DNA of 47,002 nucleotides from an uncultured Pelagibacteraceae bacterium (GTDB lineage: Bacteria > Pseudomonadota > Alphaproteobacteria > Pelagibacterales > Pelagibacteraceae). This document shows, one piece after another, positions 4,753 to 23,794 of this stretch (the stretch's first letter is position 1; each line of letters begins with the position of its first letter). Made by a program: the position numbers and the translations under genes. The notes beneath the pieces are model-generated. The model was not told the DNA's origin and did no database searches. It was given only the letters and a program-made list of their open reading frames with translations. The stretch spans positions 1 through 47,002 of the forward strand of contig CACHKE010000009.1 in assembly GCA_902580335.1 (NCBI GenBank), in the 5' to 3' direction.

Positions 4753-4842
4753 TGGCGGAGAGACTGGGATTCGAACCCAGGAAAGAGTTGCCCCTTTGCC
4801 GGTTTTCAAGACCGGTGCTTTCAACCGCTCAGCCATCTCTCC
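4753..4842 (-). tRNA. tRNA-Ser(TGA)
   Basis: Read on the minus strand it starts GGAGAGATGGCTGAGCGG, pairs GGAGAGA with TCTCTCC and carries an encoded CCA. The anticodon stem CCGGT/ACCGG encloses loop CTTGAAA, giving anticodon TGA. The long variable arm (about residues 45-62) is typical of serine tRNA, and the T arm is CTGGG-TTCGAAT-CCCAG. Its 5' half and promoter region (4804-4880 on the plus strand) are duplicated at 6473-6549, which makes this the attachment site of a small insertion. Confidence 0.96.
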
Positions 4843-4917
4843 GTGAGCAAGGTTTTATTAGTATAATATTAAAATTCAACAAAAAAACAGGCAATTTTAT
4901 TTAATGAATTTTATGCT

Positions 4918-4939
4918 TGTCTCAAGTTTGTCTCAAGTT
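4918..4939 (+). repeat. Left copy of GTCTCAAG tandem repeat
   Basis: The core GTCTCAAGTTTGTCTCAAG, two GTCTCAAG units 11 bp apart, lies between the tRNA-Ser 5' end and the protease start. The same 22-bp block is at 6335-6356 in the same orientation. Proposed arm-type recombinase binding sites (inference). Confidence 0.7.
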
Positions 4940-4968
4940 ATCCTATAAAATCCTAAATTTTAGATTAT

Positions 4969-6327
4969 ATGGCTTTAAAAAAAAAATTTTCATTATTTGG
5001 AATCGATCTTGATTATAAAGATTATAAAAAAAGATATTTAGAAGAAAATGTACCTTTTATTAGAAACCATTACAAAAAATTAAAAATTCCATATGACTTC
5101 AAAGTTACTTCAGATGAAAAAGGAAATAACTGGGATACAAGAAAACTTTATCCTCAAACACCTGCTGAATTTAAACAAAAATTTTTTAATAAAAAAAAAC
5201 CTGTAGATTTTGAGGGGATATGGCAATTACCAGGATTTGCTAAGATTGGTCTTGTAAAAGAGGGAAATTATTATCAGTCATATATAATTACATTTAATAA
5301 AAGATTTAAAGTCTCTCAAATGTCTTATGGAAAATTTTTTTCTAGTTTATTTACAGATCATGGAATTTTAGATTTTAGTATAATGAATGGTACAAAAAAT
5401 GCTCGTTATTACAAAACTCAAAATAATAATCTTTTAAAATATTCAGGCATTATGACAAACATATCTTGGAAAGATTCATCTGAAAAACTTCCAATAAATT
5501 TTTTGGTAGATTATAGTGTAAGAATAGTTAATAGCAGAGAATTAAAAGGTTCCATACCTGGGATGTCTAGATATGAAGATTTTCAGCCTATATCATTATT
5601 AAAAGTTTGGCCTGAAATTGAACATACTTTTAAAAAAGTTAGAAAAGATCATCCAGGTTTTACTATAGATTCAGACAAAATAGACTCTGACAAAAAAAGG
5701 AATGATACTAAAAAAGAAGAAAGTCCCGGTGTTGGCTCTGGTTTTTTTATTTCAGATACAGGTCATATAGTAACTAATTTTCACGTTATTGGAGATTCTG
5801 AAAATATTAAAGTTCAATATGAGGGAGATGAGATTAAAGCAAAAGTTTTAGCTACGGATCAAAGATTAGATTTAGCTTTAATAAAGATTGATAAGAAAAA
5901 TAAAAACTTTATAAAATTTTCTAGTAAATCGCCTTTTAAATCACAAGAAATATTAGTGGCTGGATTTCCTTTTGGTAAAGCAATAAGCGATGATTTAAAA
6001 ATTACTGGTGGAATTATAAATTCTCTTAAAGGTGCGGGTAATGACACAACAAGAATGCAAATTGATGCAACAATTAATCCTGGAAATAGTGGTGGACCGA
6101 TAGTAGATAAATCCTCAAAGAGTTTAATTGGTGTAGCTGTTGCTTCTTTAAATAAGGATTTTACAAAAGCTGCTTTTGGAGTAGCTAGTGAAAATACTAA
6201 TTATGCTATTAAAGCCAGTCAGGTTAGAGACTTTTTAGAATCCAATAACGTTGAGGTTAGTAATTCTAAATCTAAAGATAAAATTGGTAATATTGAGAGT
6301 TCAACTGTTTTTATTATTAGACATTAA
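4969..6327 (+). CDS. Trypsin-like serine protease with an uncharacterised N-terminal domain
   Basis: 452 aa. The C-terminal ~200 residues are a trypsin/HtrA-type peptidase with the complete triad: His272 (TNFHVI), Asp301 (LDLALIKID) and Ser374 in NPGNSGGPIVD. No PDZ domain follows. Residues 1-250 are a separate domain I cannot assign, with FEGIWQLPGFAKIGLVK near 81-97 and a beta-rich look, linked by a charged segment (~232-252). There is no signal peptide or membrane span, so a cytoplasmic location is likely, unlike periplasmic DegP/HtrA. It is the only gene of the tRNA-Ser insertion. A host-takeover or defence effector role is possible but speculative. Confidence 0.85.
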   Translation: MALKKKFSLFGIDLDYKDYKKRYLEENVPFIRNHYKKLKIPYDFKVTSDEKGNNWDTRKLYPQTPAEFKQKFFNKKKPVDFEGIWQLPGFAKIGLVKEGNYYQSYIITFNKRFKVSQMSYGKFFSSLFTDHGILDFSIMNGTKNARYYKTQNNNLLKYSGIMTNISWKDSSEKLPINFLVDYSVRIVNSRELKGSIPGMSRYEDFQPISLLKVWPEIEHTFKKVRKDHPGFTIDSDKIDSDKKRNDTKKEESPGVGSGFFISDTGHIVTNFHVIGDSENIKVQYEGDEIKAKVLATDQRLDLALIKIDKKNKNFIKFSSKSPFKSQEILVAGFPFGKAISDDLKITGGIINSLKGAGNDTTRMQIDATINPGNSGGPIVDKSSKSLIGVAVASLNKDFTKAAFGVASENTNYAIKASQVRDFLESNNVEVSNSKSKDKIGNIESSTVFIIRH

Positions 6328-6334
6328 TTTCTTC

Positions 6335-6356
6335 TGTCTCAAGTTTGTCTCAAGTT
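6335..6356 (+). repeat. Right copy of GTCTCAAG tandem repeat
   Basis: An exact direct copy of the 22-bp block at 4918-4939, starting 8 bp after the protease stop codon. The DNA from 6357 to 6472 holds no gene. It is GC-richer than its surroundings and ends with CTTGGAATTTCAAG, an imperfect inverted repeat (CTTG/CAAG) across the right junction that could be part of a recombinase core site. Confidence 0.7.
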
Positions 6357-6472
6357 TCGTAGCATAGGCAAGCCAATAATGATGCGTTTTTCGTAAAAGC
6401 TAAATTTCAAAAAGTAAGCAATGACTTGATAAGTATGTGAATCGTCGTAAAGGGTGTAGGGGTTGCTTGGAA

Positions 6473-6527
6473 TTTCAAGACCGGTGCTTTCAACCGCTCA
6501 GCGATCTCTCCGTGAGCAAGGTTTTAT
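6473..6527 (-). pseudogene. Orphan 5' half of tRNA-Ser (duplicated att copy)
   Basis: On the minus strand this reproduces the tRNA-Ser 5' end up to and including the anticodon loop, then stops. There is no 3' anticodon strand, variable arm, T arm or acceptor 3' strand. One substitution (G9 to C in tRNA numbering) suggests relaxed selection. The upstream promoter-like sequence is also partly conserved (to 6549), so a short dead-end transcript could still be made. Confidence 0.8.
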
Positions 6528-6593: not shown

Positions 6594-7472
6594 ATGAACC
6601 AGCATTTTAATAAAGGATTAATACTTACATCTTTAGGATCCTTTTGGTGGGGTTTTATTGGCGTTATATATTTTGAATATGTTGCCTTTATAGGACATGT
6701 CGAGTTAGTTGTTCACAGATGTTTATGGACAGCTGTTATGTTAATTTTGACAACACTTTTTTTAAAAAAATGGAAACTTTTTTTAAAAAGTATTTCAAAC
6801 AAAAGGAATCTTTTTTATCTTTTTATATCAGGTTCTTTAATATTCATTAATTGGGCTATTTGGATTTACGCTGTAGCTACGGAAAGAATAATAGATGCTA
6901 GTTTTGGATATTTTATCATGCCAATTATTAGTGTTTTATTGGGATATATATTTTTTAAAGAAAAATTAAATAAAAAAAGAATTTTTTCAATTTTATTAGT
7001 GATCATATCTATATTGATTATGATTTTTCTAAATATAAAAACACTTCCATGGGTTGGTATAATCGTAGCTTTGAGTTGGGCATTTTATAATCTAGTGAGA
7101 AAAAAAATTGATATAGAAACTGATATAGGACTTTTAATAGAGAGTTTATATATTTTTCCTTTTGCTCTTATTGTCTTTTACTTTATCTTTGACAAGGGAT
7201 TAAATGACTTTAGTTTGTCTAACCCTGGTCTTAGCTTGTTTCTATTATTAGCGGGACCCATGACTGTGATTCCTTTATTTTTATATGTAAGAGGTGTTGA
7301 ATTAATTGGTCTTGGAGCTACAGGAATGATTTTTTATATTACACCTACGTTACAGTTTATTTTAGGCTACTTTTATTACAATGAGGATTTTTCGCTTATT
7401 AAATTAGTGAGTTTTATTATTATCTGGATTGCTGTAATTATATATCTTAAAGATCTTTATGAAACTAATTAG
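6594..7472 (+). CDS. rarD: EamA-family permease, RarD-like
   Basis: 292 aa with about ten hydrophobic spans and the RarD hallmarks SFWWGFIGVIYFEYV near the N-terminus, ELVVHRCLW at ~36-44, and LLAGPMTVIPLFLYVRGVE in the second half. RarD proteins are inner-membrane drug/metabolite superfamily transporters; the substrate is unknown (chloramphenicol resistance has been associated with some). It is the first gene of a nine-gene overlapping run, and its end overlaps the lytic transglycosylase by 14 nt. Confidence 0.85.
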   Translation: MNQHFNKGLILTSLGSFWWGFIGVIYFEYVAFIGHVELVVHRCLWTAVMLILTTLFLKKWKLFLKSISNKRNLFYLFISGSLIFINWAIWIYAVATERIIDASFGYFIMPIISVLLGYIFFKEKLNKKRIFSILLVIISILIMIFLNIKTLPWVGIIVALSWAFYNLVRKKIDIETDIGLLIESLYIFPFALIVFYFIFDKGLNDFSLSNPGLSLFLLLAGPMTVIPLFLYVRGVELIGLGATGMIFYITPTLQFILGYFYYNEDFSLIKLVSFIIIWIAVIIYLKDLYETN

Positions 7473-9202: not shown

Positions 9203-10346
9203 AAAAATTTTTATCATTATCTCATTATATTTATCTCTAATTTTTTCTGTTAATGCAAATATTGACATAAAAGCTAGAACTGCAATATTACAAGATTTCT
9301 TATCTGGAGAAATTTTATATGAAAAAGATCCAGATAGATCAATTTATCCAGCTTCTATGACTAAGATAATGACATCAATAATTGCTTTTGATTTAATAAA
9401 ATCAGGTGATCTATCTTTAGATGATAAATTTATAATTTCTGAAAAAGCTTGGAGATTATCAACCGCAGGTTATTCATCTATGTTTATAATGGTTGGTGAT
9501 GAAGTTTCTGTAGAGGATTTACTATTAGGTATAATTATTGCATCTGGTAATGACGCATGTATTGCGCTGGCTGAAGGAATAGCTGGTACTGAGGAAGAAT
9601 TTGCAATCTTAATGACAGCTAAAGCAAAAGAATTAGGTATGGAAAATACAAATTTTGCTAATTCATCTGGCATTAATGATCCAGACAATTATTCAACCGT
9701 TAGAGATATTTTGATTATGTCTACTTATTTAATTAAAGAACATCCAAAATATTATGAATGGTTTGCTGAAAAAGAATTTACATGGAATAGAACTGGAGGT
9801 GATCCAATCACACAAGGCAACAGAAATCCTCTTCTTTATAAAAATATTGGTGCCGATGGTATAAAAACGGGTTATTTAGCTGTTGAAAAATATTCATTAG
9901 CATCATCAATTAATAGAAAGGGGAGAAGATTAATAGCTGTTGGTAGCGGATTTGAAACCAAAGGTTCAAGATCAAAAGAAAGTTCAAGATTATTAACTTA
10001 TGGATTAACAAATTTTGATCTTGTTGAAATTAATAAAGCTTATAAACCTATTGATAAAATAGATGTTTGGCTTGGTAAACAAGATCAGGTAGATGTTCAT
10101 GTTGATACAGATATTTATAAAACAATTAAAAAAGCAAAAAAAAGATTATTAAAGGTATCCATGAAATATGATGGACCAGTAGAAGCACCTATTAAAAAAA
10201 ATCAAAAAATTGGAACTTACAGAGTAGTATACGATCAGGAATTAATAGGTGAATATGATCTATTAGCGTCTAATGATGTTCAAAAAGTAAATATTTTTAC
10301 TAGATTAATTAAATCATTGAATTATTTAATCTGGGGCGATGTCTAG
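9195..10346 (+). CDS. dacA: D-alanyl-D-alanine carboxypeptidase (DacA/PBP5 family)
   Basis: 383 aa. A signal peptide (~1-21) precedes the penicillin-binding motifs: SxxK as SMTK (Ser54, Lys57), SGN at 117-119 and KTG at 224-226. The C-terminal domain (~265-360) matches the PBP5 C-terminal beta domain. It trims the terminal D-Ala from peptidoglycan stem peptides in the periplasm. It overlaps both neighbours by 8 nt. Confidence 0.95.
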   Translation: MLKKIFIIISLYLSLIFSVNANIDIKARTAILQDFLSGEILYEKDPDRSIYPASMTKIMTSIIAFDLIKSGDLSLDDKFIISEKAWRLSTAGYSSMFIMVGDEVSVEDLLLGIIIASGNDACIALAEGIAGTEEEFAILMTAKAKELGMENTNFANSSGINDPDNYSTVRDILIMSTYLIKEHPKYYEWFAEKEFTWNRTGGDPITQGNRNPLLYKNIGADGIKTGYLAVEKYSLASSINRKGRRLIAVGSGFETKGSRSKESSRLLTYGLTNFDLVEINKAYKPIDKIDVWLGKQDQVDVHVDTDIYKTIKKAKKRLLKVSMKYDGPVEAPIKKNQKIGTYRVVYDQELIGEYDLLASNDVQKVNIFTRLIKSLNYLIWGDV

Positions 10347-22020: not shown

Positions 22021-22860
22021 ATGATTTCCATAGTAATCCCAACTTATAATAATTTAGATTATTTAAAACTTTGTTTAAAAAGTTTAAAGAAAAACTCTTC
22101 TTTTAATCATGAAATTATAATTCATATTAATGAAGGTTCAGATGGTACATTAGATTTTATTAAAAATAACAATTACAAATACACGAGCTCAGAAGATAAT
22201 ATTGGTCTTTGTTCATCAATCAATAAAGCTGCAAAATTAGTGTCAAATCAATATATTCTTTATAGTCATGATGATATGTATTTTTGTCCTAATTGGGATA
22301 AAATTTTACTAGATGAAGTAAAAAATTTAAATCATGATTATTTCTATCTATCTGGCACAATGATTGAACCTAACTCCGGTCATATAGCTTTTGATTTTGG
22401 AATTGATCTAGATTCTTTTAAAGAGGACGAACTATTATCTAAATATAAAAATATTAATTTTTATGATCATCAAGGCACTCATTTTGCTCCACATTTAGTC
22501 TCAAAAAAAATGTGGGATAAGGTTGGTGGTTTTAGTGAAGAATTTAACCCTGGTATAGGTTCTGATCCAGATTTTAATATGAAATTATGGAAAGAGGGTG
22601 TGAGGATATTTAAGGGTCTAAATGATTTTAAAGTCTATCATTTTGGTTCTTTAACAACCAGGAAAAAAGAGAATTTTATTCAAAATAGAGGGGATAAAAC
22701 ATTTTTAAAAAAATGGGGAATCACAACAAAGTTTTTTAAAAAACATTATTTGAAATCAAAAACTAAATATAATGGACCTTTGAAAGAACCTAATATAACT
22801 TTTGGGTATATATTTGGTTTTTTATCTTGTAAAATACAATCTATATTTTTACTTTATTAA
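22021..22860 (+). CDS. Family 2 glycosyltransferase
   Basis: 279 aa from ATG 22021 (MISIVIPTYNNLDYL), the classical GT2 start. The upstream in-frame ATG at 21985 lies inside the previous gene and is less likely. Motifs: YSHDDMYF (the DxD-like donor/metal site) and GIGSDPDFNMKLWKEG. It ends in a hydrophobic tail (YIFGFLSCKIQSIFLLY). It probably acts with the preceding double glycosyltransferase on surface polysaccharide. The last 20 bp overlap the convergent recombinase gene. Confidence 0.88.
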   Translation: MISIVIPTYNNLDYLKLCLKSLKKNSSFNHEIIIHINEGSDGTLDFIKNNNYKYTSSEDNIGLCSSINKAAKLVSNQYILYSHDDMYFCPNWDKILLDEVKNLNHDYFYLSGTMIEPNSGHIAFDFGIDLDSFKEDELLSKYKNINFYDHQGTHFAPHLVSKKMWDKVGGFSEEFNPGIGSDPDFNMKLWKEGVRIFKGLNDFKVYHFGSLTTRKKENFIQNRGDKTFLKKWGITTKFFKKHYLKSKTKYNGPLKEPNITFGYIFGFLSCKIQSIFLLY

Positions 22861-23794
22861 GTGCATTATTTTTAAATATATTAGCTTCTTTGATATATCT
22901 TCTAACCATTTGTGTTGTTTTATGACCCGTCATAGCCATTATACTTCGTTCATCTGCACCAGACTCAGCTGCCACTGTTGCAAAACCTGACCTTAAACTA
23001 TGACCAGCAAAATTTTTATTTTCTATGCCTGCTAAATTTAGATATTCTTTTATTAATAAAACTACAGATTGATCGGTTAATCTTTTATCCGTTAATGACA
23101 AACCTTTAGAAAATCGTCTAAAAATAGCTCCAGACTTAATTTGAGAAGCCTCTAACCATTTTTTTAAATTCATGACTGGACAGTAAATTTCATTGCTGAA
23201 GTAGGGTAATCCCTTGATCATACCTTCGCCAAACTGATCAGTTTTAGATCTTTTAATGGAGATTTTCAGGCCCTCCTGTACAAACTCTAAATCCTCATAA
23301 TCTATAGAAATTAGTTCTGTTCTTCTAAATCCACCTCCAAAACCAATTAGAATTATTGATTTGTCCCTAAGTTTTTTAATTTCATCAACTTTTTGTTCAT
23401 TTATTACATTAATAATTAATTTTAAATGATTGATTAATAATGGTTTTTTACCTTTCTGAATACTTCCTTTCACCCTTCTTATGCCCATTAAATTTTCAAC
23501 TATAATCGGATGTTTAGTATCTAGATAATGCCCCTTTAGTTTATGTAACATGCTTATTGATACTAATCTCCGTCTTAAAGTGCTTATTTTTGAGTTTTTA
23601 GATAGATGAGTTAGATACAAGGATACTATTTTTGGTTCAGTTGGTAATGAATTTAAGCCATGCTTTGCACAAAAAGCACCAAAGTCTTTAAAATCAGATT
23701 TATAAGCTCTAAAAGTATTATTTGCTTTTGAGCTTTTGAGGTTATTTAAAGTTGCCTCATGTAGTGATTTTAGATCTGTAGTTAACTCACTCAT
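22841..23794 (-). CDS. Tyrosine recombinase/integrase
   Basis: 317 aa. An N-terminal SAM-like core-binding domain (~15-95) is followed by the catalytic domain with the full set: Arg158 (GFRRTEL), Lys184 (RSKTDQ), His265/Arg268 (HSLRSGFAT), His291 (TGHKT) and Tyr300 (RRYIKEA). It resembles phage/plasmid integrases rather than XerC/D. It is not adjacent to a tRNA gene and no tRNA fragment was seen near it, so its attachment site is unknown. It could mobilise the glycosyltransferase region or act in trans elsewhere. Confidence 0.93.
   Translation of the reverse strand: MSELTTDLKSLHEATLNNLKSSKANNTFRAYKSDFKDFGAFCAKHGLNSLPTEPKIVSLYLTHLSKNSKISTLRRRLVSISMLHKLKGHYLDTKHPIIVENLMGIRRVKGSIQKGKKPLLINHLKLIINVINEQKVDEIKKLRDKSIILIGFGGGFRRTELISIDYEDLEFVQEGLKISIKRSKTDQFGEGMIKGLPYFSNEIYCPVMNLKKWLEASQIKSGAIFRRFSKGLSLTDKRLTDQSVVLLIKEYLNLAGIENKNFAGHSLRSGFATVAAESGADERSIMAMTGHKTTQMVRRYIKEANIFKNNALNKVKI

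Follow-up and report, generated by a model that had tools for sequence, protein, structure and literature searches.

The window element and its parts

The window, that is, the whole stretch of 47,002 bp that was analysed, comes from an uncultured Pelagibacteraceae bacterium (contig CACHKE010000009.1), whose assembly (G000) comprises 26 contigs and is ~85% complete. An entire, presumably functional tRNA-Ser(UGA) gene lies at 4753–4842 on the minus strand, as detected by ARAGORN and compared with empty sites. Its neighbours are recG/sdh5-like genes on one side and a rarD-like EamA gene on the other. A 55-bp direct repeat starts within the tRNA gene. The left copy (4804–4858) consists of the anticodon loop TTTCAAG (4804–4810), the 5′ half of the tRNA and the first upstream bases, and the right copy (6473–6527), which also starts with TTTCAAG and carries one substitution, appears to be an orphaned 5′ half of the host tRNA. 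The two copies are spaced by 1669 bp with one mismatch in 55 bp; among direct-repeat families of the region theirs ranks first, with 87% over 93 nt. The anticodon is at tRNA position 35. These data confirm the original prediction, made from the letters of the window, that the repeat begins at the anticodon loop and bounds 1669 bp.

A conserved left end (4843–4918) lies between the tRNA and a left paired repeat and would give the tRNA a new upstream region. The left pair, GTCTCAAG-TTT-GTCTCAAG with a period of 11 bp, occupies 4919–4937 (+), and the same sequence in the same orientation recurs as the right pair at 6336–6354 (+). A conserved right end (6355–6472), common to several elements with different cargo, connects the right pair to the core. 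Written as a single string, GTCTCAAGTTTGTCTCAAG is present at both positions on the plus strand, the shuffled expectation in the window being 0.03 with 3 mismatches allowed. The earlier suggestion to look for this repeat elsewhere in the genome led to the same place: within the ~85% complete assembly, pairs of GTCTCAAG with a gap of 1–6 nt are confined to the element.

One convincing ORF, at 4969–6327 (+), is contained in the 1669-bp unit, bearing out the predicted cargo of a trypsin-like protease gene with paired repeats. It encodes a 452-aa protein with a C-terminal Trypsin_2 domain (residues 256–389, E 1.3e-26) and an N-terminal region of ~240 residues without a named family. A full-length homologue with 47% identity is encoded in another SAR11 genome. 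In PADLOC, the protein matches RT-Protease_XI models best, in their protease part, and others such as Avs1b more weakly, which suggests a possible role of the protein in defence. Domain searches of the ORF revealed no integrase match in the unit. The single PF00589 recombinase of the assembly is an Xer-like protein at 22844–23794 (−), ~18 kb from the tRNA-Ser, in agreement with the earlier description of the element as integrase-less and non-autonomous.

The element is an exact insertion at the tRNA-Ser anticodon loop

When joined at 4803/6473, the flanks of the element align to three empty relatives over 1932 bp with 94.1–95.0% identity and 1–4 gap positions. The rarD genes of these three near relatives are 96.6–98.3% identical to that of the window. 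The 1669-bp unit has inserted precisely at the 7-nt loop that holds the anticodon of tRNA-Ser(UGA). The original prediction had named a gene fixed by vertical descent as a reading that could overturn it; close relatives show the exact empty site, which contradicts such fixation, and other relatives hold different genes between the same ends, as had been anticipated.

We then assessed occupancy of the site. Searching 151 genomes of the genus with the tRNA region gave matches in 140, and the neighbourhoods of full-length matches were read. A site was called empty when the tRNA-Ser runs straight into rarD (<250 bp). Among the 97 tRNA-Ser loci scored in this genus sample, 87 were empty, 6 occupied and 4 ambiguous. 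The window and the contig-split elements of G303, G314, G351 and G393 stand outside this count, the left contig of G314 being one of the 4 ambiguous loci. Two loci with extra genes at the site and no right end found (L042 and L046) were counted as occupied here and were excluded from the intervals described below. Hosts with rarD 95–99% identical to that of the window have either an empty tRNA-Ser site or different DNA there: G380 (99.3%, left end only), L203 (97.3%), L175 (96.9%), L176 (96.6%) and G351 (95.8%).

A family of cassettes with varied cargo

The window motif, with 2 mismatches, matched in 5 of 297 family genomes and the right-end DNA of the window in 7 of 397, its own genome included in both and the last of the seven being weak. 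One of the five genomes, G192, carries three different genes in this tRNA locus, and its motif at either end is the variant GTCTCTAG. Furthermore, a core pattern specific for attR retrieved 43 stretches from the GTDB genome collection, all assigned by title to Pelagibacteraceae or Pelagibacterales, bar one of the OCS116 cluster. Intervals with the core at both ends (n = 40) span 251–9006 bp in SAR11, with a median of 2149 bp and varied cargo; one cassette is represented three times and another twice, and L043 is two elements counted once. The window element belongs to a family of cassettes through which this tRNA-Ser site in SAR11 species receives different genes, often with a link to defence. 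No prior description of this family was found in the open-access literature, subscription papers being mostly outside the scope of that search.

The shortest interval, L045, has 251 bp, one arm pair and no cargo, and is probably the product of recombination between direct arm repeats. Tandem arrays were found in L043, L168 (two elements), L245 and L248; that of L245 (AG-453-P15) resides in one tRNA-Ser and consists of two complete elements plus a third left end, with differing arm types. The arrays indicate that accretion happens. Most of the occupied sites that were read hold a single cassette.

Two observations concern the borders of the family. In the OCS116 cluster genome AG-912-F21 (L252, G535), a fragment of tRNA-Ser, within a long repetitive ORF or next to it, has two tRNA-Ser genes nearby, and a SAR11-type arm pair was not found at this locus. 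Single copies of GTTTCAAGTTTGTTTCAAG are present in other SAR11 genera (L033, L034 and L035 in G038, G062 and G057, respectively), with no tRNA within ~1.5 kb of them.

Cargo was surveyed in 99 ORFs of at least 90 aa. Six of 105 ORFs were excluded: four run off the end of the locus, one lies in a flank, and L248:16687–19278 belongs to a second element whose right end is unseen. The set was built without the near-copies L181, L205 and L177 and without L165, L042 and L046. Among the best 25 of 59 families, caspase domains (6) and MORN repeats (5) were commonest, followed by restriction-type helicases (3 for each family); MmeI-like DNA methyltransferases, other DNA methyltransferases and NB-ARC were each seen twice, and further genes once. 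Many restriction-modification models were among the best 25 of 185 PADLOC matches to the cargo.

Paired repeats resemble integrase arm-type sites

Putative integrase arm-type sites are the best interpretation of the paired GTCTCAAG repeats, given their position, their pairing and their likeness to the known lambda-like pattern. Across the family, the units are 8 bp long with an 11-bp period. Within 60-nt search windows, left pairs are located 115–117 nt past the core reference (n = 48) and right pairs 133–136 nt ahead of it (n = 44). In L044 the left pair, and in L248 the right end, escaped the detection rule and were read by eye.

The arm sequences vary from element to element, with 30 distinct 19-mers in 33 elements, and the two ends of one element vary together. 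Over 12 variable positions in 38 elements, left and right arms are 94.3% identical, compared with a mean of 52.2% and a maximum of 66.2% when right arms were shuffled; 0 of 10,000 shuffles, which treat the elements as unrelated, reached the observed value. We also analysed a reduced set of 33 elements, from which the near-copies L181, L205 and L177, L045 (whose sole pair serves as left and right) and L043 (two elements) were dropped. The identity in this set was 94.9%, against 52.2% for the shuffled arms (maximum 69.7%, 0 of 10,000). From such covariation, mobile elements without an integrase can be detected by sequence alone and matched to helpers.

Similar pairs accompany integrase genes. 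Thirteen phage-type integrase loci of SAR11 were fetched from 12 of 397 genomes, and 12 were analysed, one being without an alignment. A pair is situated just upstream of the integrase in 10 of the 12, versus 23 of 723 control windows from the same loci. Two integrase-bearing elements at tRNA-Gly(gcc), L253 6259–12399 (G536) and L254 (G407), have pairs at both ends with a 12-bp period and at most one mismatch in 8, and in both the 5′ half of the tRNA is also duplicated. L253 also has a gene for a primase-like protein that matches DUF5906.

Two further loci deserve mention. In L255 (G063), inverted copies of one integrase end occur at 7030–7150 and 10080–10210, beside a half tRNA with a CAT anticodon; no complete tRNA was detected in this 19-kb stretch. 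In L274 (G017 C1:393259), a truncated integrase (142 aa of open frame, internal stop) has a tRNA 5′ half and an arm pair next to it, and this locus is possibly an autonomous element in the course of losing its integrase.

Cassettes in divergent hosts and the origin of the tRNA halves

As judged from sequence identity, cassettes move between divergent hosts, because near-identical cassettes are found in hosts whose flanks are 76–78% identical. The cargo of L038 and L181 is 99.6% identical over 2940 bp, with flanks at 78.3% (upstream) and 75.7% (rarD). Similar values were obtained for L181 and L205 (cargo 99.6%; flanks 77.4% and 74.5%), for L172 and L177 (99.4% over 3413 bp; flank 84.4%, upstream only), and for L209 and L249 (95.6% over 2040 bp; flanks 80.2% and 76.2%). 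The remaining shared segments are less alike, several at 73–90%. Cells could acquire cassettes through phage particles, vesicles or transformation, or in some other way.

The right copy of the repeat runs on into the upstream region of empty close relatives, and the left copy runs on into sequence common to other elements. From these continuations we infer that the host's own half was left behind as the far, right copy, and that the working tRNA owes its 5′ half and upstream region to the element. The upstream type of the left ends is also native in some more distant empty hosts. A D-arm variant is present in 12 of 44 left copies versus 10 of 87 empty sites (P 0.028), which is weak support for taking this variant to mark a tRNA half of element origin.

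In the cassette copies compared, identity climbs inside the tRNA on the left and drops near the core on the right. Between L038 and L181, the drop occurs ~40 bp inside the right core, and both copies of the tRNA half agree within each host at two variable places. Neither this agreement nor the right-end drop is predicted by crossover at the anticodon loop alone, suggesting that recombination or conversion at the element ends probably also acts.

Integrases and a candidate helper

With one exception, the cassettes gave no integrase match. Among the 99 ORFs, at most one belongs to phrog_1, because every family with at least two members is among the best 25 of 83 PHROG families and phrog_1 is not. 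Ten larger ORFs of L165, L042 and L046 and the excluded L248:16687–19278 likewise gave no integrase match.

An integrase is encoded in L248 (AG-439-C21), a 9006-bp element in the same tRNA-Ser, which carries a 558-aa integrase and a 751-aa primase-like protein. Residues 217–535 of the 558-aa protein match phrog_1 integrases (E 6.5e-15). The Pfam and solved-structure searches returned nothing for this protein, and our initial integrase profile also missed it; the conserved Arg, Lys, His and Tyr positions of tyrosine recombinases can tentatively be placed in it by eye. The left arm pair of L248 is GTCTCAAGTTTGTCTCAAG, identical to that of the window. On the right, two GTCTCAAG units flank the start codon of the integrase, 25 bp apart rather than 11, and the sequence type around the right core differs from that of the window. 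Directly after L248 comes another element's left end, which has a different arm pair. AlpA was not confirmed in L248, where a 119-aa ORF had no PHROG match. Taken together, the sequences make L248 a candidate helper type for the window element, observed a single time and in a different genome.

The integrase family of L248 is represented in 4 of 397 family genomes and is absent from the incomplete assembly of the window. No tRNA-Ser core was found near it in the stretches read at the five places listed. By eye, L292 and L293 start beside an apparent tRNA-Leu 5′ half and L295 beside another tRNA 5′ half, and L292, L294 and L295 have paired repeats with a 10-bp period ahead of the integrase. Against phage records, the L248 integrase gave no match at E 1e-3, and its primase-like protein gave weak matches, with 22–25% identity among the matches listed.

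The Xer-like recombinase was also considered as a mobiliser. The window's protein shares 89.6% identity with its G192 counterpart over 317 aa, and a region of the core-binding type is visible by eye at its start. PF00589 matches were obtained in 16 of 20 and 27 of 33 genomes in two samples, a few of them being other integrases. This recombinase (~317–325 aa) was set aside, as it is conserved while the arms vary. No PF00589 match fell inside an element interval among the matches listed; these searches are weak alone because they missed the L248 integrase too.

Viral contigs were scanned for the arm pair of the window, the right-end consensus, the attR-specific core and the left-end motif, with no match. 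The tRNA half occurred in 4 viral contigs, which were read as ordinary phage tRNA-Ser genes, and gave 765 and 573 matches in phage records, mostly annotated tRNA-Ser genes among the 40 and 60 matches listed. The arm patterns CGTACAAG, GTCTCTAG and CGTTNTAG occurred in 4, 1 and 1 viral contigs, respectively, which were read as unrelated or as iterons. In one IMG/VR contig (L269, 25,453 bp), a gene carries GTCTC.AGTTT repeats with an 11-bp period in its coding region, near ParA-like and integrase-like genes identified by eye.

Proposed mechanism and alternatives

We consider it likely that the element is a non-autonomous, site-specific integrative element that lacks a recombinase and is mobilised by a helper tyrosine integrase of the AG-439-C21 type. 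The cassettes would thus probably borrow the recombinase of a rarer element with the same recognition repeats. The excised circle would present an attP made up of the right arm pair, ~118 bp, the core, ~108 bp and the left arm pair, with the 7-nt anticodon loop TTTCAAG as the core overlap. Recombination between this attP and the attB in tRNA-Ser would be carried out by a helper tyrosine integrase specific for GTCTCAAG arms, and excision would be the reverse. Since a tRNA 5′ half and an upstream region would arrive with the element, the tRNA would stay intact and the host half would be stranded at the far end. The helper may act in trans on a separate cassette or in cis on an adjoining one. Binding of the integrase to the repeats, action of the helper in trans or cis, and the provenance of each tRNA half are parts of this model that we infer, and mobilisation in trans, which the original prediction took to be implied, is likewise a proposal. 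The core and arms of the window element match those of L248 by sequence, with a different spacing at the right end of L248.

A doubtful though possible alternative is CIME-like cis-mobilisation, by which a cassette leaves only jointly with an adjoining integrase-bearing element. The tandem arrays of L168, L245, L043 and L248 are in keeping with this, and the cargo-less L045 resembles microCIMEs, the gene-less units of 130–220 bp described in the part of PMC7563491 considered here; nevertheless, a single cassette sits at most occupied sites read, and both arm pairs are kept and matched, as a free attP would need and as accretion, presumably with a smaller requirement for intact sites, would not.

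It is unlikely that cassettes spread today without any integrase, through homologous recombination of incoming linear DNA that uses the tRNA and the conserved ends as anchors. Up to ~100 bp of shared sequence per side is on offer in the tRNA and the ends, and the right-end break in identity between L038 and L181 lies inside the element, but this route leaves unexplained both the covariation of four 8-mers per element and the exact insertion at a 7-nt loop.

Still less probable is a role of the paired repeats as operators or replication iterons unconnected with integration. Pairs lie at a fixed distance from the att core at both ends, and L045, without cargo, has one, as do integrase-bearing elements; this argues against such a role despite the location of the left pair just upstream of the first cargo gene and the similar repeats within a gene of the marine virus contig L269.

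That the tRNA half was simply duplicated locally around a gene of vertical descent, a possibility that the original prediction had raised against itself as a tandem duplication, has nothing in its favour but the repeat and is refuted by the empty-site alleles of close relatives and the alternative cargo elsewhere, leaving it with practically no probability.

Comparison with known systems

SAR11 bacteria are very abundant and have small, streamlined genomes with few recognised mobile elements. A dedicated cassette system at one site with swappable, partly defence-related cargo would help explain the flexible gene pool of such streamlined genomes. On the broader proposition given at the close of this section, the 30 distinct arm strings in 33 elements would point to many helper specificities.

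The nearest description of the window element is that of CIMEs and microCIMEs. In the portion of PMC7563491 considered, CIMEs of streptococci are att-flanked, integrase-less, cargo-bearing units of 1.2–13 kb in tandem with integrase-bearing elements. The window element is likewise att-flanked by sequence and lacks recombination genes. CIMEs are decayed conjugative elements according to the same portion, whereas the candidate helper here looks like a primase-bearing satellite; moreover, the SAR11 arm sites covary over many types, most cassettes read are not beside a helper, and no conjugation genes came to notice. L248 shares with PICMIs an integrase and a DUF5906 primase-like gene (excerpts of PMC10803314). 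PICMIs, as those excerpts describe them, encode their own integrase, unlike the window element, which holds the protease ORF alone, without integrase, AlpA or primase.

Tycheposons of Prochlorococcus and others, described second-hand in the sections of PMC10872708 used here, have a tyrosine recombinase and span 4–200 kb. They resemble the cassettes in being marine and tRNA-bordered with variable cargo; on this second-hand description, the window element differs in its size of 1.7 kb and in lacking a tyrosine recombinase. Among Pelagibacterales, tyrosine recombinases and tRNA genes have been reported beside a transferred operon at another site (PMC12416821, in the part considered). A lambda-like attP organisation is known from Subcluster K4 and Cluster L mycobacteriophages, in which putative arm-site pairs flank a core in a tRNA gene (PMC10865867, in part); the mycobacteriophage, by that account, encodes its own integrase, in contrast to the cassette.

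Like the SAR11 cassettes, MITEs and CALINs are non-autonomous and use the recombinase of another element, as set out in passages of PMC11389934. The enzymes and sites described there are different, the cassettes having a single tRNA target and arm-type sites for a tyrosine integrase. We are evenly divided on the broader proposition that the SAR11 cassettes represent the tyrosine-integrase counterpart of MITEs, each with a full attP keyed to a helper, and that these cassettes, rather than the rare satellite-like helpers, may be the common vehicle by which defence and other accessory genes pass through one tRNA-Ser site of these ocean bacteria.
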